The notes below the pieces were generated by a model, which did no database searches, was not told the DNA's origin, and worked only from the letters and a program-made list of their open reading frames with translations. A program made the position numbers and the translations under genes. 64,000 nt of DNA from Ruminococcaceae bacterium AM07-15 (GTDB lineage: Bacteria > Bacillota > Clostridia > Oscillospirales > Butyricicoccaceae), in the NCBI GenBank assembly GCA_003477405.1, contig QUDE01000002.1, positions 124,001 through 188,000 on the forward strand, written 5' to 3'. Positions 3,319 through 64,000 of this stretch are shown here, in pieces. Positions within the stretch are counted from its first letter, which is position 1. Every line of letters starts with the position of its first letter.

Positions 3319-3347
3319 TTTCCATGCAGGCACGCGGATGGTATAAT
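3319..3347 (+). promoter_or_regulatory. Predicted extended -10 promoter upstream of the formamidase-tsaE operon
   Basis: TTTCCA at 3319-3324, a 17-nt spacer, then TATAAT at 3342-3347 preceded by TGG, an extended -10. The -35 match is weak. The -10 lies inside the left arm of a perfect inverted repeat. A second TGGTATAAT at 3446-3454 could be another -10 but has no visible -35. Confidence 0.5.
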
Positions 3348-3454
3348 AACCGCATACCGGTTATTATACGGATTTTGCAGCCGTTTTCTCGTCCCTTGCA
3401 GGGACAACCGAAAACATGGCCATTATACCACTTCGCCTTGCTTCGTGGTATAAT
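3341..3454 (+). repeat. Cluster of three nested inverted repeats in a 5' intergenic region
   Basis: Three dyads lie in 114 bp. The first has 12-bp perfect arms (3341-3352 and 3358-3369, loop CATAC). The second is gtccct/agggac (3391-3396/3400-3405), extended outward by gttttc/gaaaac. The third has 10-bp arms (3422-3431 and 3445-3454). TATAAT cores recur in the outer dyads on both strands, and TGGTATAAT (3339-3347) can also pair with ATTATACCA (3422-3430), so alternative folds compete. The rest of the 3155-3517 gap holds the rodA promoter and no gene. The cluster could be an operator or leader, a small structured RNA, or a MITE-like element. Confidence 0.6.
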
Positions 3455-11707: not shown

Positions 11708-11743
11708 AAAATGCCATGGGCTTTCGTAGCCCATGGCATTTTT
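11708..11743 (+). terminator. Bidirectional rho-independent terminator
   Basis: A 15-bp perfect stem (11708-11722 and 11728-11742, loop TTCGT) has A residues on its left and T residues on its right. It separates the convergent GerMN and deacetylase-like genes. Confidence 0.9.
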
Positions 11744-28694: not shown

Positions 28695-30710
28695 GTGGAT
28701 AAATATATCGGCAAAATGCTCGATAACCGCTATGAGATTCTGGAGGTTATCGGGCGCGGCGGCATGGCCGTTGTATACAAGGCAAAGTGCCACAGACTCA
28801 ACCGGTTTGTGGCGGTGAAGATTCTCAAGGAGGAGCTGGCCCAGGACGAGGAGTTCCGCCGGCGCTTCCGGGATGAATCCCAGGCGGTAGCTATGCTGTC
28901 CCATCCCAACATCGTGTCGGTGTACGATGTGTCCCGCACAGGGGATGTGGAGTACATCGTCATGGAGCTGATCGACGGCATCACCCTGAAGGATTACATG
29001 GAGCGGAAAAGCCCTCTGGGGTGGAAGGAAACGGTTTTCTTTGCCCTCCAGATCGCAAAGGCGCTGGAGCACGCCCATGGCCGGGGCATCATCCATAGGG
29101 ATATCAAGCCCCAGAACATCATGGTGCTGCGGGACGGCACGGTGAAGGTGGCCGATTTCGGCATCGCCCGCCAGGCCGCCAGCAACAATACTTACAATAT
29201 GCGGGAGGCCATTGGTTCGGTTTATTATGTGTCTCCCGAGCAGGCCCGGGGCGGCCATATCGACAACCGCTCGGATCTTTACTCTCTGGGCGTTGTCATG
29301 TATGAAATGCTCACCGGGCGTCTGCCCTTTGAAGGAGACACCCCTCTGGCGGTGGCCTTGCAGCACATCAACTCGGTGCCCCTGCCCCCCAGAGATCATG
29401 TGCCCGACATTCCCAAGACGCTGGAAGACATTGTGATGAAGGCCATGGCGCCTCAGCCGGCCGACCGCTACCGCAGCGCCACGGATATGATCCGGGATAT
29501 GGAGAATTTCCGGGATGATCCCCATTACAAGATCGATGTGGCCGCGGTTCACCCGGTGAGTGCTGCCCGATCCCGGGACCCGGAAGAGACCCAGGTGATT
29601 CAGTATTCTTCGGAGCTCCAGGCTGCGGCCCAGCGCAAGAATGCCCAGCGTCTGAAAACGGCAGCTCCGGTGGAAGAGGATGACGAGGAGGAAGAAGAGG
29701 AAGAGCGGGGAAAACGACGGATTTCCAGCTCGCTGATTTTCACCATTCTGGCCATCGCCATTTTCGCCATCGGTGCAGGTTTCTTTATCTTTGCCGTCAT
29801 CAATCCTTTTGGCAGCGACAAAAAACCGGCGGCTGAAACTACTTTGAAAGCCCCCAGGCTGGTGGGCAAGGTTTATCAGGATGTGATTGCCGATCCGGAG
29901 ATCACAGAGCAGGGGATCATCATCAAAGAAAAGACCCGCATTTATGACAAAGATGCCAAAGAAGGGGAGATCCTCAGCCAGGACCCCGAAGCCGGGGAAA
30001 CCCTGGGCGAGGACAAAGTGATCTATGTAGAGGTGTGCAAAGGCGCACCGGCCATGGAAATGGTGGATGTGGTGGGCCAGACTTCCCGCCAGGCCGAACT
30101 GGATATCAAGAATGCCGCCACCAAAGCGGGCATCACCATCACTGTGCAGACCCAGGAGGAGTATTCCGACGATGACGCCGAAGATACCGTCATCCGCACG
30201 GTGCCCGAAAAGGGAGAAGAACTGAGCGACGGGGATGTGGTGACCCTGTATGTGAGCATGGGGCCGGAGATCCCCCAGAAAAAGACGCCTAATTTCCTCC
30301 AATGGAACATCAACGATGTGACCCGCAGCGAAGTGGAGAAATACGGCCTGACCATGGGTTCCACCACCGAAGTGGAGAGCAGCCAGCCGGCGGGAACCAT
30401 TGTGGGCCAGTCCCCCGATCCGGGCGACATGGTGGATGAAAACACACCGCTGAATTTCGAAGTGAGCAAAGGGCCTCAGCAGAAGGAAGTGACCATCACT
30501 CAGGTGATCACGCTGGTGCCCAGTGAAGACGATCCCACAGCTCCCATCCGCGTGGTGGTGGAAGTGGACGGCGAAGTGGCCTATGAAAAGGAACACGATC
30601 CCTCCGAAGGTACAGTGAGCGTGCGTCTCAAGGCGCTGGAAGGAGATCATGAGGTACACATTATGGAAAATGGCCAGACCATTTCCCGGGAAACGGTGAC
30701 CTTCCAATGA
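28695..30710 (+). CDS. prkC: PASTA-domain Ser/Thr protein kinase
   Basis: Membrane kinase sensing peptidoglycan fragments or lipid II. Cytosolic kinase domain (about 1-270): GRGGMAVVYKA glycine loop, VAVKIL lysine, HRDIKPQN catalytic loop, and the DFGIAR segment. A juxtamembrane acidic/basic stretch has a run of Glu near 330, then a TM helix (about 345-368), three PASTA repeats (about 375-575) and a beta-rich C-terminal domain. The start is GTG with AGGAGGAG upstream. It forms the prpC-prkC-rsgA core module. Confidence 0.96.
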   Translation: MDKYIGKMLDNRYEILEVIGRGGMAVVYKAKCHRLNRFVAVKILKEELAQDEEFRRRFRDESQAVAMLSHPNIVSVYDVSRTGDVEYIVMELIDGITLKDYMERKSPLGWKETVFFALQIAKALEHAHGRGIIHRDIKPQNIMVLRDGTVKVADFGIARQAASNNTYNMREAIGSVYYVSPEQARGGHIDNRSDLYSLGVVMYEMLTGRLPFEGDTPLAVALQHINSVPLPPRDHVPDIPKTLEDIVMKAMAPQPADRYRSATDMIRDMENFRDDPHYKIDVAAVHPVSAARSRDPEETQVIQYSSELQAAAQRKNAQRLKTAAPVEEDDEEEEEEERGKRRISSSLIFTILAIAIFAIGAGFFIFAVINPFGSDKKPAAETTLKAPRLVGKVYQDVIADPEITEQGIIIKEKTRIYDKDAKEGEILSQDPEAGETLGEDKVIYVEVCKGAPAMEMVDVVGQTSRQAELDIKNAATKAGITITVQTQEEYSDDDAEDTVIRTVPEKGEELSDGDVVTLYVSMGPEIPQKKTPNFLQWNINDVTRSEVEKYGLTMGSTTEVESSQPAGTIVGQSPDPGDMVDENTPLNFEVSKGPQQKEVTITQVITLVPSEDDPTAPIRVVVEVDGEVAYEKEHDPSEGTVSVRLKALEGDHEVHIMENGQTISRETVTFQ

Positions 30711-31591
30711 GCAATCAAGTGGAAGGGGTGATCCTCAAGGGGATCGGCGGCTTTTACTATGTCCACACTGGCCGACGGCAGATCGAGTGCAAGGCCGGAG
30801 GACGGCTTCGCCTCAACCGCCGGGAAAAACCGGCGGTGGGCGACCGGGTGATGGTGGAAGAGCGGGGGGAAGAAGGGCTGATTACCCAGATCCTGCCCCG
30901 GAAAAACTTCCTCCAGCGCCCGCCCATCGCCAACATCGACCAGCTGTTCATCGTGGCCAGCCAGGCCAGCCCGGTGACAGATCCCTATCTCATCGACAAG
31001 GTGAGCGTCATCGCTCTGCGCCAGGGGATTCAGCCTATTCTGGTGCTCAACAAGCAGGATGTGGACCCGAGCCGGGATTTTCGCCTGATTTACGAAAAAG
31101 CCGGGTTTCCCGTGCTCTCCACCAGCGCCGAGACCGGCGAAGGGGTGGAGGAGCTGCGGCAGATGCTGCGGGGGAAGGTGTCGGCCTTCACCGGCAACTC
31201 AGGCATCGGCAAATCCAGCCTGCTCAATCGCCTGGAAGAGGGGGTGCTGATGGAGACCGGCTCCATCAGCCGCATCAGCCGGGGACGGCACACCACCCGC
31301 CGGGTGGAGCTGTTCTTCGTGGCCGAAGGGTATCTGGCCGATACCCCCGGCTTTTCCTCCTTTGATATCTCCCGGATGGAGCACATCCCCAAGGAGGAAC
31401 TGGAGCAGTATTTCCCCGAGTTTGAACCCTTTCTGGGCCAGTGCCGTTTTTCCGGCTGCGCCCATTGCAAAGAGCCGGACTGCGCCGTGGACCAAGGGGC
31501 CCGGGAAGGGGCCATTGCTCCCTCCCGGCTGGAAAGCTACCGGAAGCTCTATGAGGAGATGGCCCAATGGAAAGAGTGGGAAAACAAATGA
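30707..31591 (+). CDS. rsgA: Ribosome small-subunit GTPase RsgA
   Basis: Circularly permuted GTPase in late 30S maturation (294 aa). OB domain (about 1-70), LVLNKQD G4 motif, GNSGIGKSSLLNRL P-loop, and DTPGFSSF G3. A C-terminal zinc finger C-x4-C-x2-C-x4-C is in CRFSGCAHCKEPDC. ATGA overlap with prkC; its own TGA overlaps the thiN ATG, so rpe (between them in Bacillus) is absent. Confidence 0.96.
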   Translation: MSNQVEGVILKGIGGFYYVHTGRRQIECKAGGRLRLNRREKPAVGDRVMVEERGEEGLITQILPRKNFLQRPPIANIDQLFIVASQASPVTDPYLIDKVSVIALRQGIQPILVLNKQDVDPSRDFRLIYEKAGFPVLSTSAETGEGVEELRQMLRGKVSAFTGNSGIGKSSLLNRLEEGVLMETGSISRISRGRHTTRRVELFFVAEGYLADTPGFSSFDISRMEHIPKEELEQYFPEFEPFLGQCRFSGCAHCKEPDCAVDQGAREGAIAPSRLESYRKLYEEMAQWKEWENK

Positions 31592-32208
31592 ACTGGGCCT
31601 TTGTCATTGCCGCATCTCCCGAAGAGGAGATCGGCTATATCCGATCGGCCTATGATGCTCTGCCGTCTCCTCTGGTGCTTTGCGCCGACGGGGGACTGCA
31701 AAAGGCGGAAAAACTGGGCATCCCCTGTGATATCCTCATCGGTGATATGGATTCCGGCGGGGGAGACGGGGCAAAAGATGTGGTGCGTCTTCCCATGGAA
31801 AAGGACTTCACCGACACCCAGAGCTGCCTGGAGGAAGCAGTGCGGCGGGGATGCAGCCATGTGCTCATCACCGGCGCCACCGGCGGGCGGCTGGATCATT
31901 TGCTTTGCAATCTTCATTTGCTGGAGGCCCTGGAGAAAAAAGGGGTGCATGGGCTGATTGCAGACCGGGATAACCTGGTGCAGCTTTTGGAAAGCGGCCC
32001 GGTGCAGGTGCCGGCCTGTTACCGGTATTTTTCCATTTTGCCCATCGATCAGGAGCTGCGGGGAGTGACCATCCGGGGGGCGAAATATCCCCTCCAGGAT
32101 GCTGTAGTCCAGCGGGATGATTCTCTCACTGTGAGCAACGAAGCGCCTTCAGGGGAAGTGATCATCCAGGTGAAAGAGGGCCGGGCCTTCCTGATCTTTT
32201 CCCGATAG
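31588..32208 (+). CDS. thiN: Thiamine pyrophosphokinase
   Basis: Transfers pyrophosphate from ATP to thiamine to give TPP. LCADGGLQKAEKLGI, DILIGDMDS and the EKDFTDTQSCLEEA block are the catalytic-domain motifs, and GATGGRLDH follows. The C-terminal beta domain contains the thiamine site. Length of 206 aa is normal. It ends the conserved core run; the next gene in Bacillus would be spoVM, which here lies 2.3 kb away. Confidence 0.94.
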   Translation: MNWAFVIAASPEEEIGYIRSAYDALPSPLVLCADGGLQKAEKLGIPCDILIGDMDSGGGDGAKDVVRLPMEKDFTDTQSCLEEAVRRGCSHVLITGATGGRLDHLLCNLHLLEALEKKGVHGLIADRDNLVQLLESGPVQVPACYRYFSILPIDQELRGVTIRGAKYPLQDAVVQRDDSLTVSNEAPSGEVIIQVKEGRAFLIFSR

Positions 32209-32241
32209 CGGCTGGTCGCTTAACACCATACTGATTTCTGC

Positions 32242-32271
32242 AAGGGCAGCGCCTTCTGGCGCTGCCCTTTT
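32242..32271 (+). terminator. Rho-independent terminator after thiN
   Basis: A 12-bp stem (32242-32253 and 32258-32269, loop TTCT) followed by TTTT. It closes the yicC-thiN transcript and marks the left edge of the accessory segment. Confidence 0.88.
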
Positions 32272-32311
32272 GTTGGTATGCGCAGAGTTTTTTCGGAAGT
32301 TCTTGGAATAC

Positions 32312-32340
32312 TTGATTTGACAAGTAAAACTTGGTATAGT
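32312..32340 (+). promoter_or_regulatory. Predicted sigma-A promoter of the accessory segment
   Basis: TTGATT (32312-32317), 17-nt spacer, TATAGT (32335-32340) with an extended TGG. It lies just after the thiN terminator and 70 nt before the frameshifted gene, showing the insert has its own transcription start. Confidence 0.6.
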
Positions 32341-32409
32341 TGAAAGATAAAATAGGATGTGTAACAACAGAACAAAAAGTATGTAGTCAATACACGGGAG
32401 GTAACCGAT

Positions 32410-32699
32410 ATGGTAGTGAAATATGTACTAAATCGGGATCGTGGCGTACTACATATCAAAACCTGTTTTGCGGCGAAAAACATCTTCCACAGCGAAGTAC
32501 CGACCGTTTTTTTTGGTTCTATCGCCGCTGCCGCATCCGGTACGGGATTGTGGACAATAGGGACCTGGCCCCGCCGGAGAACCGGCAGTGGGTGCTGGTG
32601 CTGGCGGCAGAATATGGTTGGACTTATTCCGTGGAGCGGCTGGGACGAATGCTGGATCATCTAAGGCCGAAGTATGAGGCTCTGAGGCGGGACATATAG
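32410..32699 (+). pseudogene. Small gene interrupted (or recoded) at a T8 run; 96-aa product if shifted -1
   Basis: A well-placed GGGAGG leads an ATG whose frame reads sensibly for 35 residues (N terminus MVVKYVLNRDRGVLH, then H-x3-C). It then becomes Trp/Cys-rich nonsense ending at 32664. Directly at a run of eight T (32507-32514) the -1 frame continues as a protein-like sequence (YGIVDNRD, ENRQWVLVLAAEYGWTYS, a C-terminal helix) to a stop at 32697-32699. The run presents T-TTT-TTT in exactly the register of a -1 slippery heptamer. It may be a decayed gene, a sequencing homopolymer error, or programmed frameshifting. The Y-V-L-N...H-x3-C start faintly recalls Ada-like zinc motifs. No family is recognised. 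Confidence 0.5.
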
Positions 32700-32830
32700 A
32701 CGCAGACGGGAGGGAATGTGGAGCGGCATGGAGAAAACCAAAGCAGCTGAGAGCTGTGGCTGCTTTGCTGGTACCAGTTGTAGCAGGTCCTTATAAATAA
32801 AAATGATGTGTACGGATGGAGGAATGAAAG

Positions 32831-33991
32831 ATGGACAGTGCAGTTATGTTCCCTATGATCTTTGCGATTGCGTGTTTCGTTGCAGGGATGGTATATGATG
32901 AGAAGAAGAAAAAGAAAGTAGAAAGACAAAGGGAGTTGGACAGGCCGAAGAATGAAGCATTATTTTTTGACCGCTGCGTAGAGAAGGGAATTTTTACAAT
33001 CAGTGATAATCTTGGCATAAAAGAGGAAGTGCGAAAAACTGCAATAGAGTGTAATTTGCTGCCAACGGATACATATTTGTTATCTGGAAAGGACCAAGTC
33101 ATGCTGGGGGATGTATTCCAGATCAAGAAAGAGTCAGACGAAGGCAGGAAAAAAAACAGAAACAAGCAGAAGGAAATTGAAAAAGCGGAATGGGCGGAGC
33201 TCACGGCCTACGCCGATCTGCCCCCGGAAGATAAACTTCAGACCATGGCTGCCGATGAAATACGGAGACTGCGGGGAGGCCCTTCACCCAAGCTACTCCA
33301 GACCAAAAAGACATCAGACGGCATGATACTGGCGGGTACGGCGGCAGGGATCGGCGGCCCCATTCCCGCTCTCGCATCCCTGTCCCGGACAGCGGAGCGG
33401 AACGCTCAGATTGAGGCATACAACCAGGGGGTCAATGCAGTCAATGCCATGGTGATCAGCGTTGGGATGAACGCAAGGACTGCCGCAGGCAAAACAGAGG
33501 AGATGGCAAAACGGTTTTCAAGCAAAAAGATCGCAGACCTGCCCAAGGAAAAGATATTAGAATATCTTCACTTTGATGAAATAAATGTCGCTCCGTATTC
33601 TTACAATTCCGAAGAGTACAAGACCGGCACACTTGCTGTAACTGTGGAAATGGATCCGGCGTCCATTAAAATCGGTGACACCTCCTATTTTGTGGACGGA
33701 TCTCTCACTGCGGAGATCTTTGACGGAGCTAAGAAAGTCGGGGAGGCTACTCTGGTGCTTCCAATGTGCGGCTCCAGTCTGGACAATCATTATCTGTCTT
33801 TGCCATATGTTAAGTTGAGTGACAGGGAGAGAGTCATCAAATTAAAAGGAATCTGCCTGTACTGCAAAGCGGCTGAGAATAAAAGCTGGAGTGAATTAGA
33901 CAAGTGGAAAGTAAAGATCGTGCCCGGGAAGTACCTGTGGGCGATGGAAGATCTTTCAGGGTTTGATAAATCGCAAATCGATCGAGCGTAA
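32831..33991 (+). CDS. Unrecognised membrane-anchored protein of 386 aa
   Basis: I do not recognise this protein. Visible: an N-terminal transmembrane helix (about 6-22) followed by a very basic Lys-rich stretch (25-33), so most of the protein is probably cytosolic. A charged helical region with a Lys/Arg/Glu coiled-coil-like stretch lies near 98-122. A small Gly/Ala/Ile hydrophobic segment (about 167-186) could be a second membrane or hairpin helix. The C-terminal half looks like beta-sandwich strands (VTVEMDPASIKIGDTSYFVDG, ATLVLPMCGSSLDNHYLSLPYV) with a CxxC pair near 346-349. GGAGG lies eight bases upstream of the ATG. Codon use is more AT-rich than the flanks, suggesting transfer. Confidence 0.75.
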   Translation: MDSAVMFPMIFAIACFVAGMVYDEKKKKKVERQRELDRPKNEALFFDRCVEKGIFTISDNLGIKEEVRKTAIECNLLPTDTYLLSGKDQVMLGDVFQIKKESDEGRKKNRNKQKEIEKAEWAELTAYADLPPEDKLQTMAADEIRRLRGGPSPKLLQTKKTSDGMILAGTAAGIGGPIPALASLSRTAERNAQIEAYNQGVNAVNAMVISVGMNARTAAGKTEEMAKRFSSKKIADLPKEKILEYLHFDEINVAPYSYNSEEYKTGTLAVTVEMDPASIKIGDTSYFVDGSLTAEIFDGAKKVGEATLVLPMCGSSLDNHYLSLPYVKLSDRERVIKLKGICLYCKAAENKSWSELDKWKVKIVPGKYLWAMEDLSGFDKSQIDRA

Positions 33992-34175
33992 GGGGGCATA
34001 ATGATTGTTTTCTGGTTTGATCCAGCCACTCTTTCCCTTGGGATAAAGTGTCCCATAGGTGCGCCATGATAAGAGCGGCACCGCAAAGGAGGCCGTGATT
34101 GAGATACATCTACCTCTTTTGATCTGACCTCCATCTGGGGGGATCGGAGAAAATACATCCCACTGCCTGTTTTTG

Positions 34176-34214
34176 GGGCGTGGATAGCCAAGTCGCTATC
34201 CACGCCCTATTTTT
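34176..34214 (+). terminator. Strong rho-independent terminator
   Basis: A 13-bp perfect stem (34176-34188 and 34195-34207, loop CAAGTC) followed by TATTTTTT. It ends transcription coming from the accessory genes. Confidence 0.9.
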
Positions 34215-34225
34215 TGCATATAGAA

Positions 34226-34248
34226 AACCACTCGCTAGGCGAGTGGTT
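34226..34248 (+). repeat. IS200/IS605-like terminal hairpin or remnant
   Basis: A 10-bp perfect dyad AACCACTCGC/GCGAGTGGTT with loop TAG. Its length, small loop and position beside a gene-poor junction resemble the subterminal hairpins recognised by Y1 (IS200/IS605) transposases. No transposase gene is present, so this would be a relic or a non-autonomous end. Family assignment is inference. Confidence 0.35.
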
Positions 34249-34386
34249 CAAAAGAAGCCTTGTGGCGATGCATGACATACAAGCTAGCAACAAAGGGTTT
34301 TACCCGTCTATGAAAAAATCAAGATCCCATCACAAAAAGATGCCGGGGCCAATATACTGGTAGTACAGAGTATTGGAGTGTTGCAC

Positions 34387-34527
34387 ATGAGACCTTGCTG
34401 TAACAGACGGGGATGCCTGCCCTGCCTGGCTGCGCTGGTGGCCGGCATTTTGTTGGCGATGCTTCTGCCGCCCTGGCTGTGCTTTGTCATCATCATGGCC
34501 GTCCTTGTCTGCCTGTGCCTGCTTTGA
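34387..34527 (+). CDS. 46-aa Cys-rich single-span membrane peptide upstream of spoVM
   Basis: A short gene led by GGAGTG eight bases before its ATG. The peptide has an N-terminal basic, cysteine-rich head (MRPCCNRRGCLPC) followed by one long hydrophobic segment ending at the stop, so it is a small membrane protein with four cysteines outside the helix. It ends 23 bases before the spoVM start and is probably co-transcribed with it. No family is recognised. A role in forespore or engulfing-membrane biology is inferred only from context. Confidence 0.6.
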   Translation: MRPCCNRRGCLPCLAALVAGILLAMLLPPWLCFVIIMAVLVCLCLL

Positions 34528-34550
34528 CGCTGGATTGGGAGGTGTGTTGG

Positions 34551-34631
34551 GTGAAGATCATGGTGGTGAAGGCCCCGAAAATGTTCCGCGGCCTGCTGCG
34601 GAAGGTGTTCGGCATCGGCGGCGAAGAATGA
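34551..34631 (+). CDS. spoVM: Stage V sporulation protein SpoVM (26 aa)
   Basis: An amphipathic helical peptide that recognises the convex forespore outer membrane and anchors SpoIVA at the start of coat assembly. The translated peptide (GTG start, GGGAGG eight bases upstream) begins MKIMVVKAPKMFRG and ends FGIGGEE. It is exactly 26 residues, like Bacillus SpoVM, and keeps the family's KxPK-[FM]-x-[RG]-G pattern with the helix-breaking Pro9. Gene context agrees: SipL-like and SpoIVA genes follow. Its size means automated callers easily miss it. Confidence 0.88.
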   Translation: MKIMVVKAPKMFRGLLRKVFGIGGEE

Positions 34632-34642
34632 AGCAAAAAAGG

Positions 34643-34678
34643 GGGCCGTTTCGGAAATTTTTCCGAAGCGGCCCTTTT
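34643..34678 (+). terminator. Rho-independent terminator after spoVM
   Basis: A 13-bp stem with one G-T pair (34643-34655 and 34662-34674, loop AATTTT) followed by TTTT. It separates spoVM from the sipL-spoIVA transcript. Confidence 0.88.
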
Positions 34679-34742
34679 GTCATATCTTTCGGGACGAGGG
34701 CGTATAGATGCAATGATCAAAATTCGGGAAAGAAGGGTTACA

Positions 34743-36266
34743 ATGGAACTGATCAAAAGCCGCGCCCTCCAATATGCAACGGTATCCCGCGCGTCCACCA
34801 GCCACGAAGAGTCCCTGGATGCCATCGTGCCGGATACATTCCCCGATATAGAGACCATCTGCTGTGCTCTGGGTTCGCTGGAGATCCGGGAAAAGCTGGT
34901 GCAGACCGATCGGGTGATGGTGTCGGGGAACATCCGGGGGACCTTGGTCTATAAAGGGGAACAGGGCGGGCCGCTGTGTGCGCTGGACTGCACCATTCCC
35001 TTTGCCGCCTTGGTGGAGGCCAGAGGGTGCAAGGGACAGGATCTGGTGTTTGTCAAAGGCTCCCTCCACCGGCTGGAGGGGCGGATGCTCAACCCCCGGA
35101 AATTCACTTTGCGGGCCCAGTTCGGACTGGAGACCCAGGTGTGCGCCCCCAAAGAATATGAGGTGTGCCAGGGAATCCGGGGCGGGGAAGAAGAGGGGAT
35201 GCAGGCTTTGACCCAGACTTTCTCCTTTGAGTCCGCCCTCTCCATGAAGGAAAAGGGATTTTCCCTCCACGAAGATGTGCGCCAGAAAAGCCCGGAAGGA
35301 TCGACGGGAGACAAAGTGCTGCGCACCAGCTGCAAACTGGTCACCGAGGACATCCGGGTGATCTCCGGAAAGGTGATGCTCCGGGGCAGCGCCCAGGGGG
35401 AGGCCCTGCTGCTGCGGCAGAGCACCGGGGCCATGGAAAAGGAGAGCTTTTCCATTCCCTATTCCCAGATCGTGGAGCTGGAAGGGGCGGAGGAAGGGGA
35501 TGCCGCCCAGGTGGAATACAGCGTGAAAAACTGCGCCTGCAATTTGTCCTCTGACGAGGAAGGCCCCTTCCTTTCCTGGGATATCGCCGCCGATGTGATG
35601 GTGTCCATTCACCGGCCGGTGCAGTATGAAGTGCTGATGGATGCCTTTTCCACCAAAGGGGGATGCACCTTGCAGCAGGAGCCGCTGGATCTGCCTCTGG
35701 CCCGGTGCGAGAGAGAGGCTTCCGCCGAAATGCGGGCCACTCTTTCGCCTCCGGAGCAGGCCGACACACTGCTGGATTGGTCGGCCAGCGTGAAAAGCTG
35801 CGGGGCCATTGGCAAAGAAGGGGTGGCTCATGGAGAAGTGTGCGTCAATCTGCTGTGCATGACAGGGGATGGCCAGCCCATGCAGTATGACCAGGTGGTT
35901 TCCTGGGAGGGACATTTTCCACCCATGGAAGGGGAGGACTGCCTGTGCCAGTGTGATATTTCCGGCCTGAGCCTGAAATGGGCCGACGGTGCATGCCAGC
36001 TCACAGGGCCGGTGGCTTTCCATCTCACCGGCCAGAGCGGAAAGCCGGTGCGTCAGGTGGTGGATTGCCAGATGGACGAAAACGCCCCGGCGCCCGCACG
36101 CCCCAAGGCTTCCCTCATTCTTCGCCGGGCCGAGGGCGGGGAAACCGTGTGGCTTCTGGCCAAGAGCTTCCGCACATCCCCGGGGGATATCATGGCGGCA
36201 AACCATCTGGAAACGGGCGGCGCTTTGGAAAAGGGCCAGCTGGTGATGATCCCCTTTCAGCGCTGA
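34743..36266 (+). CDS. SipL-like spore coat morphogenetic protein (SPOCS/DUF3794 plus LysM)
   Basis: Predicted mother-cell coat protein. An N-terminal domain and SPOCS (DUF3794) repeats (about 30-430; note the ILxKAVxG-like VMVSGNIRGTLVY strand and FxFxxPF-like segments) are followed by a C-terminal LysM-like domain (about 455-505, GETVWLLAKSFRTSPGDI, LEKGQLVMIP). In C. difficile, SipL has this architecture and binds SpoIVA. The ATG used has AAGGG upstream, giving 507 aa. It directly precedes spoIVA with a 29-bp gap. A sigma-E-like sequence at 34680-34709 has correct spacing but a poor -10. Confidence 0.85.
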   Translation: MELIKSRALQYATVSRASTSHEESLDAIVPDTFPDIETICCALGSLEIREKLVQTDRVMVSGNIRGTLVYKGEQGGPLCALDCTIPFAALVEARGCKGQDLVFVKGSLHRLEGRMLNPRKFTLRAQFGLETQVCAPKEYEVCQGIRGGEEEGMQALTQTFSFESALSMKEKGFSLHEDVRQKSPEGSTGDKVLRTSCKLVTEDIRVISGKVMLRGSAQGEALLLRQSTGAMEKESFSIPYSQIVELEGAEEGDAAQVEYSVKNCACNLSSDEEGPFLSWDIAADVMVSIHRPVQYEVLMDAFSTKGGCTLQQEPLDLPLARCEREASAEMRATLSPPEQADTLLDWSASVKSCGAIGKEGVAHGEVCVNLLCMTGDGQPMQYDQVVSWEGHFPPMEGEDCLCQCDISGLSLKWADGACQLTGPVAFHLTGQSGKPVRQVVDCQMDENAPAPARPKASLILRRAEGGETVWLLAKSFRTSPGDIMAANHLETGGALEKGQLVMIPFQR

Positions 36267-41949: not shown

Positions 41950-42006
41950 AACCATTCCCCTCTGGCGCCCGGGAAAGAAAAAACTTTCAAAAAAACCAGG
42001 AAACCC

Positions 42007-42038
42007 TTGCAATCAGGGGATTTGTGTGGTATTATAAT
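42007..42038 (+). promoter_or_regulatory. Predicted sigma-A promoter for rplS
   Basis: TTGCAA (42007-42012), 17-nt spacer, TATTAT (42030-42035) overlapping a TATAAT at 42033-42038. It is followed by a short structured leader. Confidence 0.65.
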
Positions 42039-42043
42039 CGGGC

Positions 42044-42096
42044 ATGCATTACGGATGGTCCTCTGCCGCAGTCAGGGCACGAACATCTATGAACGA
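42044..42096 (+). ncRNA. L19 leader-type RNA upstream of rplS
   Basis: The leader folds as GATG (42054-42057) with CATC (42084-42087), enclosing TGCC (42064-42067) with GGCA (42076-42079). Unpaired purine-rich GAA segments follow and lead to AAAGGAA before the start codon. Size, position and nested two-stem shape match the L19 leader described for Firmicutes, thought to let L19 control its own synthesis. A covariance-model search would decide. Confidence 0.5.
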
Positions 42097-42110
42097 AAGG
42101 AAAGAGAATT

Positions 42111-42452
42111 ATGGATCTCGTAAAAAAACTGACCGAATCCCAGCTGAAGCCTGACGCTGTCAACTTCGGCATCGGCGACACCGTTCGGGTGCACGCCAAG
42201 ATCAAAGAAGGCAACCGTGAAAGAATTCAGGTCTTTGAGGGCACCGTCATCGCTATGAAGCACGGCGGCATCCAGGAGACATTCACCGTTCGCCGCGTAT
42301 CCTACGGCGTAGGCGTAGAAAAGGCTTTCCCCGTCCATTCCCCCAACCTGGAGAAGGTGGAAGTGGTCCGCAAGGGCAAAGTCAGAAGAGCCAAGCTTTA
42401 CTACCTGCGTAACAGAGTTGGCAAGGCTGCTAAAGTCAAACAGGATATCTAA
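42111..42452 (+). CDS. rplS: Ribosomal protein L19
   Basis: 50S protein at the 30S-50S interface (113 aa). [44 protein letters not shown] and the C-terminal [21 protein letters not shown] are diagnostic. It has its own promoter, leader and terminator, so it is a single-gene unit. AAAGGAAAG serves as ribosome binding site. Confidence 0.98.
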
Positions 42453-42460
42453 GAGGATGC

Positions 42461-42489
42461 AGGGACGGAGCAATTCTGTCCCTCTTCTT
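42461..42489 (+). terminator. Rho-independent terminator after rplS
   Basis: A 10-bp stem containing two G-T pairs (42461-42470 and 42474-42483, loop CAA) followed by CTTCTTTTT. Confidence 0.75.
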
Positions 42490-42545
42490 TTTATACCCAG
42501 CCGGGCCTGTGAAACGGCCCGTCCCGCGCTTTGGAGGATGATGTG

Positions 42546-44995: not shown

Positions 44996-45709
44996 ATGGC
45001 GCTCTATACCATTGGAGACCTGCACCTGTCGGAGTCCAGCGGCAAACCCATGGATGTGTTCGGGGGCGTGTGGCAGGATTACCGGCGAAAGATCGTGGAA
45101 GCCTTCTCCCAGACCCTGAAGGAGGACGACACCGTGGTGCTTTGCGGCGATCTGTCCTGGGGGCTCAACCTGGAGCAGGCCCTGGCCGATTTCAAGCTGG
45201 TGGATTCCTTCCCGGGGAAAAAGATTCTCATCAAGGGCAATCACGATCTTTGGTGGCAGACGGTCACCAAAATGAATAAATTTTTTGAAAATCATCAAAT
45301 AAAGACCTTGTCTTTTTTGCATAATAATTGTATTTTTTATAAGGACACCGCCTTGTGCGGCACCCGGGGCTGGTGCTATGATCCATCGGACCCGGCCGCA
45401 GGAGATGAAAAGGTGTTCAAGCGGGAGCTTTGCCGTCTGGAAGCGTCGCTGCAGGCGGCCCGGCAGCAAAGTCCCCAGGGAGAAATCTTCTGTTTTCTCC
45501 ATTATCCCCCCATCTTGGCAGGGAAGGACCCTTATGAGGTGCGGGAGATCACCGGGCTTTTGCGCCGCTATGGCGTCAGCCGGTGCTATTACGGCCACCT
45601 TCATGGGGAAAGCCTGCGGGGGGCCTTTTCCGGCGAGCGGGACGGGGTGAGTTACCAGGTGGTATCCGCCGATTATCTCCGCTTCCGGCCAGTGATGATA
45701 AAACCTTAA
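44996..45709 (+). CDS. Calcineurin-like metallophosphoesterase
   Basis: Predicted phosphoesterase of 237 aa. Metal motifs: GDLHL (near residue 7), CGDLSWG, KGNHDLWW, FLHYPP and YGHLHG. Substrate is unknown. The middle of the gene (about 45265-45345) is strikingly AT-rich compared with both sides, encoding KMNKFFENHQIKTLSFLHNN with AT-ended codons. GGAGGGG precedes the start. Confidence 0.9.
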   Translation: MALYTIGDLHLSESSGKPMDVFGGVWQDYRRKIVEAFSQTLKEDDTVVLCGDLSWGLNLEQALADFKLVDSFPGKKILIKGNHDLWWQTVTKMNKFFENHQIKTLSFLHNNCIFYKDTALCGTRGWCYDPSDPAAGDEKVFKRELCRLEASLQAARQQSPQGEIFCFLHYPPILAGKDPYEVREITGLLRRYGVSRCYYGHLHGESLRGAFSGERDGVSYQVVSADYLRFRPVMIKP

Positions 45710-45741
45710 AAGAAAGATATTTGTATGAGGAGGAAACTCAA

Positions 45742-47073
45742 ATGCAGCTGAAGGGCATTGAGAAAAAGGAAAAGAATCAGGTGGAGCTGACCATCGAAGT
45801 CGGCAAGGAAGAGTTCGAAAAGGCCATGGAACAGGCCTATCGGAAAAATGTGGGTCGTATGAGCGTCCCCGGCTTCCGCAAGGGCAAGGCTCCCCGGAAG
45901 ATCATCGAGAAGTTGTATGGCGAAGGCGTTTTCTTTGAGGACGCTGTGAATATGTGCTATCCCGAAGCCTATGACAAGGCCGTGGAAGAGAGCAAGATCC
46001 AGCCCGTGGATCATCCCCAGATCATGGTGGATGACATCTCTCCCGAAGGCTTCACCTTCAAGGCCACTGTCACCGTCAAGCCCGAAGTGAAGATCGAGGG
46101 CTACAAGGGCCTGACCGTGGAAAAGGGCCGGGTTTCCGTCACCGAGAAGGATGTGAAGGAAGAGCTCAGCCGCATGGTGGACCGCAACGCCCGCCTGGTC
46201 ACCGTGGAGCGGGAAGTGAAGGACGGCGACACCGTTGTCTTTGACTTTGAAGGCTTTGTGGACGACAAGCCCTTTGAAGGCGGCAAGGCTGAAAATTACA
46301 CCCTGGGCATTGGTTCCGGCATGTTCATCCCCGGCTTTGAGAGCCAGATGGTGGGCAAGAAAGTGGACGAGCCCTTTGATGTGAATGTGACTTTCCCCGA
46401 AGAGTACCAGGCCAAGGAGCTGGCCGGCAAGCCCGCCGTGTTCAAGTGCCTGATCCACGAGGTCAAGGAGACCCAGAAGCCCGAGCTGGACGACGAGTTC
46501 GCCAAGGATGTGTCCGAGTTTGACACCCTGGATGAGCTGAAGGCCGACCTGAAGACCAAGATCCGGGAGCAGAAGGAAAAGGCTGCCGAGAACGAGTATG
46601 ACGAGAAGCTGATCGACGCCATGCTGGAGCACTTCGAAGCCGACATCCCCGAAGTGATGATCGAAGCACAAATCGACAGAATTGTCGAGGACTTTGGGTA
46701 TAGACTGTCCATGCAGGGCGTCACACTGGATATGTACCTGAAGATGAACGATATGTCCATGGAATCCTTCCGCAAGCTGTTCCGTGAGCAGGGCGAGAAG
46801 CAGGTGAAGGTCCGCCTGGCTCTGGAAGAGATCGCCAAGCTGGAGAACATGGAAGTGAGCGAAGAAGAGCTGGAGAAGGAATTTGCCAGCCTGGCCGAGC
46901 AGAACAAGATCGATGTGGAGCGGGTCAAGCAGCTGCTGCCTGCCCAGTCCCTGAAGGACGATCTGCTGACTCAGAAGGCTGTGGAGCTCATCAAGTCCAC
47001 CGCCAAGAAGCCCGCCAAGAAGACGGCCAAGAAGGCGGAAAAGACAGAGGAAAAGGAAGAGGAGAGCAAGTAA
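45742..47073 (+). CDS. tig: Trigger factor
   Basis: Ribosome-associated chaperone with peptidyl-prolyl isomerase activity. The ribosome-binding loop is GFRKGKAPRKIIEKLYG (near residues 45-61), the FKBP-type PPIase domain covers about 155-245, and the helical C-terminal domain ends in a Lys/Ala/Glu-rich tail. GAGGAGG precedes the ATG. Length of 443 aa is typical, and location before clpP-clpX is conserved. Confidence 0.97.
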   Translation: MQLKGIEKKEKNQVELTIEVGKEEFEKAMEQAYRKNVGRMSVPGFRKGKAPRKIIEKLYGEGVFFEDAVNMCYPEAYDKAVEESKIQPVDHPQIMVDDISPEGFTFKATVTVKPEVKIEGYKGLTVEKGRVSVTEKDVKEELSRMVDRNARLVTVEREVKDGDTVVFDFEGFVDDKPFEGGKAENYTLGIGSGMFIPGFESQMVGKKVDEPFDVNVTFPEEYQAKELAGKPAVFKCLIHEVKETQKPELDDEFAKDVSEFDTLDELKADLKTKIREQKEKAAENEYDEKLIDAMLEHFEADIPEVMIEAQIDRIVEDFGYRLSMQGVTLDMYLKMNDMSMESFRKLFREQGEKQVKVRLALEEIAKLENMEVSEEELEKEFASLAEQNKIDVERVKQLLPAQSLKDDLLTQKAVELIKSTAKKPAKKTAKKAEKTEEKEEESK

Positions 47074-47121
47074 GTCCTGCCATGCCTTCCTTCCTGTGCT
47101 GCAGAAAGGAGTTTTCCCATT

Positions 47122-47706
47122 ATGTCCCTTGTACCTATGGTAGTGGAGCAGACCAGCAAAGGGGAGCGTTCGTACGACATTTATTCCCGGCTGCTCAATG
47201 ACCGTATCATCATTTTGTCCGAGGAAGTCAATGACACCACCGCAAGCCTGGTGGTGGCCCAGCTGCTCTATCTGGAGAGCCAGGACCCGGACAAGGATAT
47301 CAGCTTTTATATCAACAGCCCCGGCGGCTCCATCAGTGCCGGTATGGCCATTTATGACACCATGCAGTATATCAAGTGCGATGTGAGCACCATCTGCATC
47401 GGCATGGCGGCCAGCATGGGCTCCTTTTTGCTGGCGGCCGGCGCCAAGGGCAAGCGCTATGCGCTGCCCAACAGCGAGATCATGATCCACCAGCCCCTGG
47501 GCGGGATGCAGGGTCAGGCCACCGATATCAAGATCCACGCCGACCACATCATCCGCATCAAGGACCGGATGAACCGTCTGCTCAGCCAGATGACCGGCCA
47601 GCCTTTGGAGGTCATCCAGCAGGACACCGAGCGGGATAATTTCATGACCGCGCAGCAGGCTCAGGAATACGGCCTGATCGACAAGGTGTTTGAGCATCGG
47701 GAGTAA
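47122..47706 (+). CDS. clpP: ATP-dependent Clp protease proteolytic subunit
   Basis: Serine protease core of the ClpXP machine. Catalytic triad Ser98 in GMAASMGS, His123 in MIHQPLGG, and Asp172 in DTERDNF. AAAGGAG precedes the ATG. Length 194 aa is standard. Directly followed by clpX. Confidence 0.98.
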
Positions 47707-47748
47707 TCTCTGATTTTCAAAATGTCAAACCGATGGAAGAGGTAAGTC

Positions 47749-49017
47749 ATGTCCGAAGAACAAAAAGAGATCCGCTGCAGTTTCTGCGGCCGTTCTCAAA
47801 AGGAAGTGCGCCGGATCATCGCGGGCCCCGGGGCCTATATCTGCAACGAATGCATTGAGATCTGCAAAGATCTTCTGGACGAGGAGCGGGCGGAGGAAGC
47901 CCGCTCCCGGGGCAAGAAGAAAGAGGATGAACTGCTCCGGCCTGCCCAGCTGAAAAAGATCCTGGACGAATATGTCATCGGCCAGGACCGGGCCAAAGTG
48001 GTGCTTTCGGTGGCGGTGTACAACCACTATAAGCGCATCCGCTCTTTGGAAAAAGGCGGCGAGGACGGGACCGATGTGGAGATCCAGAAGAGCAACATCC
48101 TCATGCTGGGCCCCACCGGCAGCGGCAAAACCATGCTGGCCCAGACGCTGGCCCGCACCCTCAATGTGCCCTTTGCCATTGCCGACGCCACCACCCTCAC
48201 CGAGGCCGGGTATGTGGGCGAAGATGTGGAAAACATCCTTCTGCGCCTGATCCAGGCTGCCGATTACGATGTGGAGCAGGCCGAAAAGGGCATCATCTAC
48301 ATCGATGAGCTGGATAAGATCGCCCGGAAGAGCGAAAATCCCTCCATCACAAGAGATGTGAGCGGAGAAGGGGTGCAGCAGGCCCTGCTGAAAATTCTGG
48401 AGGGCACTGTGGCCAATGTGCCGCCTCAGGGTGGACGGAAGCATCCCCAGCAGGAGTTCATCCAGATCGACACCAGCAACATCCTCTTTATCTGCGGCGG
48501 CGCTTTTGACGGCCTGGGCCAGATCATCGAAAAGCGCTGCGGCAACCAGGGACTGGGCTTCGGCGCCCAGGTGCTGTCCAAAAAGCAGAGCGAGAAAAAC
48601 GACATTCTCCAGAAGGTGGAGCCTCAGGACATCCTGAAGTTCGGTATCATTCCCGAACTGATCGGCCGTCTGCCCATTATCACCGCTCTGGACCCCCTGG
48701 ACAAGGAGGCTCTGGTCAGCATCCTCACAAAGCCCAAAAATGCTCTGACCAAGCAGTACCAGTATCTCTTTGATCTGGACGGGGTGGAGCTGGAGTTTGA
48801 AGAGGACGCTCTGGAGGCCATCGCCGAAAAGACTATGGAGCGGAACACCGGCGCCCGTGGCCTGCGTTCTGTGCTGGAAGATATCATCACCGGCATCATG
48901 TTCGATGTGCCTTCCGATCCCACCATCAGCCGTGTGGTGGTCACCCGGGATGCGGTGGAGAAGAAAGCCGCCCCCAAGGTGGAGCACAACCGGAAACCGC
49001 CGAAGAAAAAAGGATAA
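47749..49017 (+). CDS. clpX: ATP-dependent Clp protease ATP-binding subunit ClpX
   Basis: AAA+ unfoldase feeding ClpP. N-terminal C4 zinc finger (CSFCG ... CNEC), Walker [11 protein letters not shown], Walker [11 protein letters not shown], the pore loop GYVGED, and the ClpP-binding LGF loop (NQGLGFGAQ). Length 422 aa is typical. Confidence 0.98.
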
Positions 49018-61942: not shown

Positions 61943-63893
61943 GATCACTGTGGCCAAAAACGCCGGTTACTGCTACGGCGTACGCCGGGCCATTGAAAAG
62001 GCCGAAAGCCTGGGTGGAAAAGGGCAGAAAGTGTATACCGCAGGGCCTTTGATCCACAACAAATTCGTTGTGGAGCAGCTTGAGGGGAAGGGCATCTTTT
62101 CCCGGGAGGACATTGAGAGCATCCCTGACGGGGCCGCTGTGGTGGTGCGGGCCCATGGCATCACTCTGGAGCAGCAGCGGCGGCTGATGGAAAAAGGCTG
62201 CCAGCTGGAAGACGCCACCTGTCCTCATGTAGGGCGTATTCACCGGATCGTGGAGGAAGAGAGCGGGAAGGGACGGCATATTCTGCTCATCGGCGCGGGA
62301 AAACATCCCGAGGTTCTGGGCATCGCTTCCCGGTGCAAAAGCTGCACGATACTGGAAAACCCGGCCCAGGCAGAGGAGTGGGCAGAAAAAAACAGTCAAA
62401 TAGCTGTATCGGTGGTGTCTCAAACCACCTTCAATCGTGAAATTTTTGTAAATTGCACAAAAATATTAAAAAACGCTTGTAAAAGCATCAACATCTTTGA
62501 TACAATATGTAATGCTACGGATGAACGCCAGAAAGAGGCGCGCACCCTGGCATCCGGATCTGACCTTGTGATCGTTATCGGCGACCAGACGAGCAGCAAT
62601 TCGCGCAGGCTCTACGAAATTTGCCTCCAGGTGTGCCCCGATACCCTTTTCGTGGAAAACGCCAAAGGGATTCCTGAAGGGTATGGCCGCGGGAAACAAG
62701 CGATTGCCATCGCCGCCGGTGCGTCCACGCCAGATCTGATAATTAAGGAGGTATATGACAAGATGACTGACGAAATGAACATCCAGGAAACAGAAAGCTT
62801 CGCTGAGCTGCTGGAGCAGACTCTGAAAACTTTACATACAGGAGAAAAGGTGACGGGCGTTATCACACAGATCAACCCCACGGACATCCATGTGGACCTG
62901 GGCGTCAAGCAGGCCGGCTACATCCCCACCACTGAGCTGAGCGACGACCCCAACTATGTGATCGCTGACAACATCCACATCGGCGACGAGATCGAAGCCT
63001 ATGTCATGCGCGTCAACGACCAGGAAGGCACCATCATGCTGTCCAAGAAGCGCCTGGACGCTGTGAAGAACTGGGAAGTTTTGGAGAAGGCTGTGGAGAC
63101 CGGCGAAGTCTATGACTGCGTCATCACCGATGTAAACAAGGGCGGCGTTATCGCCAATGTGCTGGGCATCCGGGTCTTTATCCCCGCCAGCCAGACCGGC
63201 CTGCCCCGGGAAGCTGACCTGTCCCAGATGGTCAAGACCCATCAGAAGGTGCGCATCACCGAAGTGACCCGTCCCCGCCGCCGCGTGGTCGGCTCCATCA
63301 AGGCTCCTCTCATGGAAGCCCGCCGGGAAGCTGCCGCCAAGATCTGGGAAGAGATCGAAGTGGGTTCGGTGTACACCGGCACCGTCAAGTCCTTCACCTC
63401 CTATGGCGCCTTTGTGGACATCGGCGGTGTGGACGGCATGATCCATATCTCCGAGCTGAGCTGGTCCCGGGTGAAGCATCCCTCTGATGTGCTGAAGATC
63501 GGCCAGACCGTTGAGGTGTATGTCATCGCTCTGGACAAGGAGAAGAAGAAGATCTCCCTGGGCTACAAGAAGGCCGAGGACAACCCCTGGACCAAGTTCG
63601 AGTCCAACTACAATGTGGGCGATGTGGCTCCTGTGAAGATCGTCAAGTTCATGCCCTTCGGCGCCTTTGCTGAGGTTCTGCCCGGCGTGGACGGCCTGAT
63701 CCACATTTCCCAGATCGCTGACCGCCGCATCGGCAAGCCCGAAGAGGTGCTGACCATCGGCGAGACTGTCAATGCCAAGATCACCGACATCGACAGCGAG
63801 AAGAAGAAGATCTCCCTGAGCATCCGCGCTCTGCTGGACGCTTCCAACACCGAGCCCGAAGCGGTGGAGGCCGAGGAGAACGACGCCGAATAA
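61935..63893 (+). CDS. Bifunctional IspH (HMBPP reductase) / ribosomal protein S1
   Basis: Single 652-aa frame with an N-terminal IspH domain (about 1-280) and four S1 domains (about 285-630). IspH makes IPP and DMAPP in the MEP pathway; its three cluster cysteines are in GYCYGVRRAIE, DATCPHV and DTICNATDERQ. The S1 part binds mRNA on the 30S subunit and ends in an acidic tail. GTG start with GGAGG upstream. Such fusions are known in Clostridia. A perfect AAGGAGGT at 62745-62752 stands before an in-frame ATG at 62763 at the domain junction, so free S1 may also be made. Confidence 0.96.
   Translation: MAKITVAKNAGYCYGVRRAIEKAESLGGKGQKVYTAGPLIHNKFVVEQLEGKGIFSREDIESIPDGAAVVVRAHGITLEQQRRLMEKGCQLEDATCPHVGRIHRIVEEESGKGRHILLIGAGKHPEVLGIASRCKSCTILENPAQAEEWAEKNSQIAVSVVSQTTFNREIFVNCTKILKNACKSINIFDTICNATDERQKEARTLASGSDLVIVIGDQTSSNSRRLYEICLQVCPDTLFVENAKGIPEGYGRGKQAIAIAAGASTPDLIIKEVYDKMTDEMNIQETESFAELLEQTLKTLHTGEKVTGVITQINPTDIHVDLGVKQAGYIPTTELSDDPNYVIADNIHIGDEIEAYVMRVNDQEGTIMLSKKRLDAVKNWEVLEKAVETGEVYDCVITDVNKGGVIANVLGIRVFIPASQTGLPREADLSQMVKTHQKVRITEVTRPRRRVVGSIKAPLMEARREAAAKIWEEIEVGSVYTGTVKSFTSYGAFVDIGGVDGMIHISELSWSRVKHPSDVLKIGQTVEVYVIALDKEKKKISLGYKKAEDNPWTKFESNYNVGDVAPVKIVKFMPFGAFAEVLPGVDGLIHISQIADRRIGKPEEVLTIGETVNAKITDIDSEKKKISLSIRALLDASNTEPEAVEAEENDAE
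62477..62506 (+). promoter_or_regulatory. Candidate promoter inside the ispH domain
   Basis: TTGTAA (62477-62482), 18-nt spacer, TACAAT (62501-62506), inside an AT-rich patch unlike the rest of the gene and about 255 nt upstream of the S1 restart codon. Confidence 0.45.
62745..62765 (+). promoter_or_regulatory. Internal ribosome binding site for free ribosomal protein S1
   Basis: AAGGAGGT (62745-62752) is fully complementary to the 16S 3' end and lies 10 nt before an in-frame ATG (62763) at the IspH/S1 boundary. Initiation there would give a 376-aa S1 protein. An out-of-frame ATG at 62755 stops after three codons. Confidence 0.5.
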
Positions 63894-63923
63894 GACCTGA
63901 TAGGGTCCATTGATTTGCCTGAC

Positions 63924-63955
63924 AGGGCGTGGGGATAAGCCCCACGCCCTTTTTT
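63924..63955 (+). terminator. Rho-independent terminator after ispH-rpsA
   Basis: An 11-bp stem (63924-63934 and 63940-63950, loop ATAAG) followed by six T. It closes the downstream operon; the last 45 bases of the window show nothing further. Confidence 0.92.
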
Positions 63956-64000
63956 GGTACTTTCCCCTGAAAAAACGCATAGAATGGCTTAAGGCCAATC

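Follow-up and report, generated by a model that had tools for sequence, protein, structure and literature searches.

The question raised by this locus is whether the DNA that separates thiN from spoVM in the window (the whole 64,000-nucleotide stretch of Ruminococcaceae bacterium AM07-15 DNA that was analysed) is an accessory insertion and, if so, what it consists of and how it came to lie there. On the left, thiN is preceded on the + strand by frames that, from their translations, we take to be PrpC-, PrkC- and RsgA-like. The RsgA-like and thiN frames (window 30707-32208) overlap at 31567-31591. On the right, a gene for a 49-aa peptide and spoVM are followed by a SipL/LysM gene, identified by a profile match, and beyond it by a large gene that is presumably spoIVA. 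The original prediction, set against the contiguous Bacillus order prpC-prkC-rsgA-rpe-thiN-spoVM, was that an accessory insert splits the thiN-spoVM junction. The window departs from the quoted order, as no open frame for rpe was present between the putative RsgA-like and thiN frames in the ORF list of the window.

To delimit the insert, the window was aligned by BLASTN with 80 kb of a contig of G001, the closest genome compared, which shares 26% of sampled 31-mers with the window. Four collinear blocks of 93.5, 91.0, 92.1 and 94.1% identity were obtained, and these left uncovered only about 100 bases near 3347-3446 and the bases 32274-34313 of the window. G001 carries about 0.2 kb extra near window 11713-11722, and besides the insert no indel above about 0.2 kb was present between the two. 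Similarity to G001 ends at 32273 and restarts at 34314, and a donor-like match to G301, a genome from another family of the order, begins at 32278. The edges (Table 1) therefore do not fall at the 32209 and 34386 first proposed. Identity to G001 reaches 97-99% at window 34314-35000, 42001-42500, 45001-48000 and 63001-63998, where the blocks average 91-94%; these stretches are possibly recombination tracts or strongly conserved.

In G001, thiN and its terminator are followed by 50 bp and then by the region upstream of spoVM, where the window has 2.04 kb. The sole further genome of the genus compared, G002, likewise has a compact junction, with no terminator seen behind thiN, the peptide gene starting about 62 bases and spoVM 236 bases past the thiN stop codon. 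The junction is compact, and the genes of the insert are missing from the site, in both (2 of 2) of the other genomes of the genus; the same genes at this place in all close relatives, which would have marked an ordinary locus of the lineage, were thus not what was found. Across the family, thiN was matched in 74 of 87 genomes and 30 of the loci were read. Only G001 and G002 among these have the peptide, SpoVM and SipL in order within about 1.5 kb behind thiN, the 1.5-kb flank bounding what the other 28 loci could show; a weak peptide match at locus L047 is on the wrong strand. Since only these two keep that order, the tight thiN-spoVM arrangement is a genus-level feature in the present data, and the window breaks it.

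Table 1. Features of the thiN-spoVM junction, in window coordinates
Feature	Position	Strand	Evidence
thiN (thiamine pyrophosphokinase), left neighbour, outside the insert	31567..32208	+	PF04263 E 1.2e-19, PF04265 E 3.4e-12
Intrinsic terminator 3' of thiN	32242..32269	+	12-bp stem; also in G001, not in the G002 junction
Insert, about 2.04 kb	32274..34317	.	left edge 32274-32278, right edge 34313-34319
Promoter and leader of accessory operon	32278..32391	+	98/114 columns identical to G301 L111 218-330 (86%)
Relic of operon gene 1	32340..32699	+	35/60 residues identical to G301 protein, E 1e-19
Leader block upstream of membrane-protein gene	32714..32833	+	86% over 120 columns to G017
Membrane-protein gene, 386 aa	32831..33991	+	12 proteins in the database, itself among them; 7 loci in genomes of GTDB species
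3' block with strong terminator	34071..34216	+	81% over 145 columns to G057; 80% over 147 to G011
IS200 left end, hairpin 34224-34248	34217..34274	+	91% over 66 and 92% over 61 columns to G018 IS200 left end
IS200 subterminal right-end remnant	34283..34317	+	30/35 bases identical to G018 IS200
49-aa peptide gene, right neighbour	34378..34527	+	100% identity in G001, 69% in G002
spoVM, right neighbour	34551..34631	+	NF033436 E 1.6e-6, 28 bits, below cut-off 31; conserved in G001 and G002

The GC content of the insert is lower (0.478, compared with 0.585 and 0.596 in the flanks). Atypical composition, together with absence at the syntenic site in G001 and G002, gives the insert both marks of an acquired islet at the level of the genus. 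A scan returned 6 promoter-like and 6 terminator-like sites compared with 2.5 and 2.4 in shuffles and, because of these shuffle counts, lends modest support by itself. A terminator had been predicted on each side, and both were located, at 32242-32269 and at 34174-34209, the latter followed by six T. The structured non-coding stretch matched no Rfam family at the gathering score, and the presence of a known RNA was rejected on this ground; the best weak match (E 0.009, 26.8 bits against a required 45) falls on the thiN terminator.

The insert had also been described as an islet or small mobile unit parked between operons. It is an accessory insert, but the mobile unit was not upheld: the three insert ORFs scanned gave no transposase or integrase family match, no repeat of at least 12 bases pairs the two ends, no att site or direct repeat (again of at least 12 bases) was seen there, and an IS200 stub is present at one end only. 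Of the outcomes expected from alignment across relatives, empty sites were found in G001 and G002, and the same two-gene cassette was not found elsewhere in the searches made, nor was the whole islet. Three separate pieces of the insert match three different genomic settings, in G301, in G017 and in G057/G011. The predicted accessory insertion was therefore borne out by the compact junctions of both relatives and by the recurrence of its pieces elsewhere in other combinations, and the insert is a chimera of pieces, not an intact mobile unit.

The first piece comes from the start of a three-gene accessory operon. In G301 (L111 365-2730) the products of this operon are a membrane protein of 119 aa, another small membrane protein, whose frame was picked out of the sequence by eye, and a protein of 578 aa. 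The whole operon is also present in G002, on another contig (L149 2951-6598), where genes 2 and 3, behind gene 1, encode proteins of 75 aa and about 641 aa; the third-gene proteins of the two genomes are 43% identical over 562 columns. The G002 copy directly follows a gene for a tyrosine recombinase (PF00589, E 1.6e-28), and the promoter and leader ahead of the copy match those of the window at 80% over 59 columns. The operon protein of about 600 aa carries RHS-like repeats, and the 75-aa protein is a membrane protein. In the window, the promoter that the insert was predicted to possess was identified as the promoter-like TTGATT-17-TATAGT at 32312-32340, in a stretch conserved in G301, and is followed by a relic of gene 1; genes 2 and 3 are absent. 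This relic had been read as a frameshifted small gene, but it is not simply frameshifted: only its C-terminal 60 or so residues match whole relatives, and the N-terminal membrane segment has been replaced. One database relative, P0013, has the same shape as the relic. Gene 1 itself was found in 1 of 87 genomes of the family, G002.

The other two pieces are shared with regions around genes for SLH proteins. The leader block precedes, in G017, an SLH-protein gene that is broken across frames (an SLH domain was matched in the G017 frame). The 3' block, whose terminator has its stem at 34174-34209 followed by T6G, lies in G057 just behind an SLH-domain gene (SLH E 1.6e-33) and in G011 behind a frame that ends like the G057 SLH gene, with an integrase gene within about 2.5 kb. 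Matches were obtained in 2 of 394 genomes for the leader block and 3 of 394 for the 3' block, one match each being short (22 or 34 bases), and the possibility that either is a widespread repeat was rejected on these counts; the genome searches with both blocks and with the insert undercount, because at most two candidates were scored per genome. At L108 6011-6822 of G017, a start resembling the membrane-protein family leads into a broken SLH/InlB-repeat gene, a layout as if the 5' and 3' ends of such surface genes were swapped.

Between these blocks lies the membrane-protein gene, the only gene of the insert that looks whole. An AlphaFold2 model (pLDDT 83.5) and hydropathy analysis gave a layout of an N-terminal membrane helix, a helical part, a Gly-rich segment at about residues 160-185, a long helix and a C-terminal beta domain. 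No Pfam or NCBIfam match above threshold and none in PHROGs was obtained, and scattered weak Pfam matches among 19 family members had a best E of 0.0016 in one member. The family carries no name in the curated libraries used. The prediction that the two genes of the insert match no family was thus accurate for the second gene as regards curated families, but 11 other database proteins are related to it, and the first gene is what remains of a gene found complete in G002 and G301. The protein family is rare and patchily distributed, with members in 2 of the 87 genomes of the bacterial family and in 1 of 245 from the order. At its seven loci in GTDB species genomes, three of which belong to one MAG, the gene stands alone and its surroundings vary; the named relatives belong to five MAGs titled Oscillospiraceae. 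P0002 agrees with the protein at 43 of the 77 residues aligned in positions 1-80 but at 263 of 266 from position 121 on, a pattern of intragenic recombination, and the relatives of the gene are recombinant.

No convincing relative of solved structure was found for the protein, the fold matches being middling, although the absence of a fold match is no evidence of a new fold. The predicted C-terminal domain alone has a fold like the beta-sandwich domains of GH2 beta-galactosidases and like ester-bond adhesin repeats. The N-terminal anchor, and flanks common to SLH-protein genes, suggest that the protein most likely acts at the cell envelope. It was not found in viral contigs (IMG/VR), phages or plasmids; an origin of the protein in any of these was rejected for this reason, and with the protein absent from the collections searched no carrier for the islet was found. 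The DNA of the insert matched viral, phage and plasmid data only through its IS200 end, in two records from plasmids and one from a phage.

The hairpin at that end, predicted to be IS200-like, proved to be a true IS200 end, matched to an element of G018 whose ORF is PF01797 Y1_Tnp (E 1.2e-41). The stub shares its left-end subterminal hairpin and its right subterminal sequence with the IS200 group of IS200/IS605, which have the Y1 transposase alone, but the Y1 transposase gene is missing (at about 100 bases, the stub is too short for tnpA), as is the terminal right hairpin that was read in the G018 element and in five of the several copies of a related element in G001. Lacking both, the stub is a remnant. 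PMC7290912 describes short relatives of IS200/IS605 that consist of ends only, as PATE-like sequences, and insertion of the IS200 group 3' of a short fixed sequence with no target duplication. In the window, the terminator at 34174-34209, T6G and the left end follow one another in the usual position of the group, and T6G precedes the left end as it does in most of its members.

We consider it probable that the insert is a mosaic accessory islet, with pieces common to other Oscillospirales genomes, set in the intergenic stretch that runs from the thiN terminator to the promoter region of spoVM. We infer the following order of events, and likewise any transfer route, expression and function of the islet. 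The islet would have been assembled from several pieces at a site where no gene is broken. The promoter, taken from the three-gene operon, would most likely now serve the adjoining membrane-protein gene, because gene 1 is a relic and genes 2 and 3 are absent, and the strong terminator at the end of the islet should shield spoVM. An IS200-type element would then have landed on the T-tract of that terminator and since eroded, leaving a stub about 100 bases long; the 3' block was probably in place before it, because the left end of the stub uses the terminator of that block. Genomic islets between operons are a general notion, and the insert resembles them in its low GC, patchy gene, relic gene, IS stub and lack of a housekeeping gene, but differs in having no integrase, att site or direct repeat at its ends. 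It would be a commonplace example of accessory DNA that collects where insertion does no harm, downstream of a terminator.

The compact G001 junction is no proof of recent arrival, because G001 may carry a deletion scar. The islet could predate the split between the species of the window and G001 and have been deleted from the latter, leaving the 50-base spacer as the scar, a history that we regard as possible but doubtful. The thiN terminator, common to G001 and the window and missing from the G002 junction, would fit such a deletion. The spacer was further aligned with six targets, using shuffles that keep single-base content only. Against one of these, the right end of the G018 IS200, its score was reached by 14 of 2000 shuffles, and resemblance to an IS200 right end would make G001 a deletion derivative; for the right end of G001's own IS200 the count was 102 of 2000. 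However, the other four comparisons gave scores typical of shuffles: of 2000 shuffles, 692 reached the score for the left edge of the window, 1062 that for its right remnant, 811 that for the G301 left edge and 1150 that for the whole insert. The alignments are short and gapped, and the same trace would be expected had IS200 inserted independently behind the thiN terminator in G001.

A very improbable alternative is that IS200 carried the islet as cargo, within a non-autonomous element with IS200 ends that was moved in trans. In its favour, the right edge of the insert is made up of an IS200 left end together with a right subterminal piece. However, these two pieces sit side by side at 34217-34317 and do not enclose the genes, the left edge of the insert gave no IS200 match, and the IS200 left end follows the terminator of the islet itself, just as left ends follow terminators in unrelated insertions of the group; this order of parts disfavours cargo. 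Independent loss of ancestral genes from G001 and G002, with no insertion, draws on the comparison of just two relatives of the genus and is hardly credible in view of the lower GC, the relic gene, the pieces common to other genera and families, and the patchy protein family.

For the mosaic islet, the proposed landing of IS200 on a terminator agrees with the siting of the group as a whole, and this terminator-sited group is the best lead from the locus. We lean towards the view that a clostridial IS200 group homes to intrinsic terminators: its Y1 transposase would recognise a hairpin plus T-tract (typically TTTTTTG) in single-stranded DNA and set the left end in one register, which would lead to gene-safe sites, and the terminator fold itself may be the target structure. 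Group IIC introns likewise insert 3' of the hairpins of intrinsic terminators, but they are retroelements whereas IS200 is a single-strand DNA transposon. If a minimal single-strand transposon does select terminator hairpins, this would be a simple route to harmless insertion and would help to explain the gathering of islets and IS stubs at the ends of operons.

In a first sample, part of which came from a query that included the T-tract, 29 of 31 distinct left-end contexts had a hairpin and T-tract directly upstream, compared with 6% of shuffles. A second sample, collected with a pattern that omitted the T-tract, matched 14 of 245 genomes of the class; with 30 of the 50 listed matches used as loci, 3 of them G001 copies already in the first sample, a hairpin and T-tract lay upstream in 29 of 30, compared with 5.6% of shuffles. 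In the union of the two, 55 of 58 distinct left ends (loci L005-L144 and the window) were directly behind a terminator-like hairpin, the T-tract being counted without deciding whether it belongs to the target or to the end of the element. By eye, the three misses (L018, L075 and L130) have hairpins with mismatches or a longer loop; one counted positive, L143, is weak, with a 6-pair stem. For comparison, 292 of 759 distinct T5G runs, from loci that are a non-random sample, passed the same hairpin test. The terminator hairpins belong to the hosts, because they vary between copies.

Targeting is claimed below certainty because the copies within a genome are not independent, survivorship, through the loss of harmful insertions, may contribute to the bias in siting, and the one copy checked for an empty site, the IS200 of G018, yielded none: its flanks were present in none (0 of 3) of the other genomes of that genus. 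Passages of PMC9208149 place IS200 among the families over-represented between convergent gene ends, a pattern that points the same way, there without naming terminators as targets. A preference for terminators was not found in the literature searched, including passages of PMC7290912, PMC5371812 and PMC9208149, and may be in print elsewhere, subscription literature being mostly outside the scope of the search.

Most of the left ends share one register. With a slightly looser pattern, the TTG fell 11 bases ahead of the stem in 46 of the 58 contexts, at a distance of 10, 12, 13 or 14 bases in 8, and was not found in 4. In 47 of 56 contexts, a frame of at least 100 codons ends on the same strand no more than 150 bases upstream.
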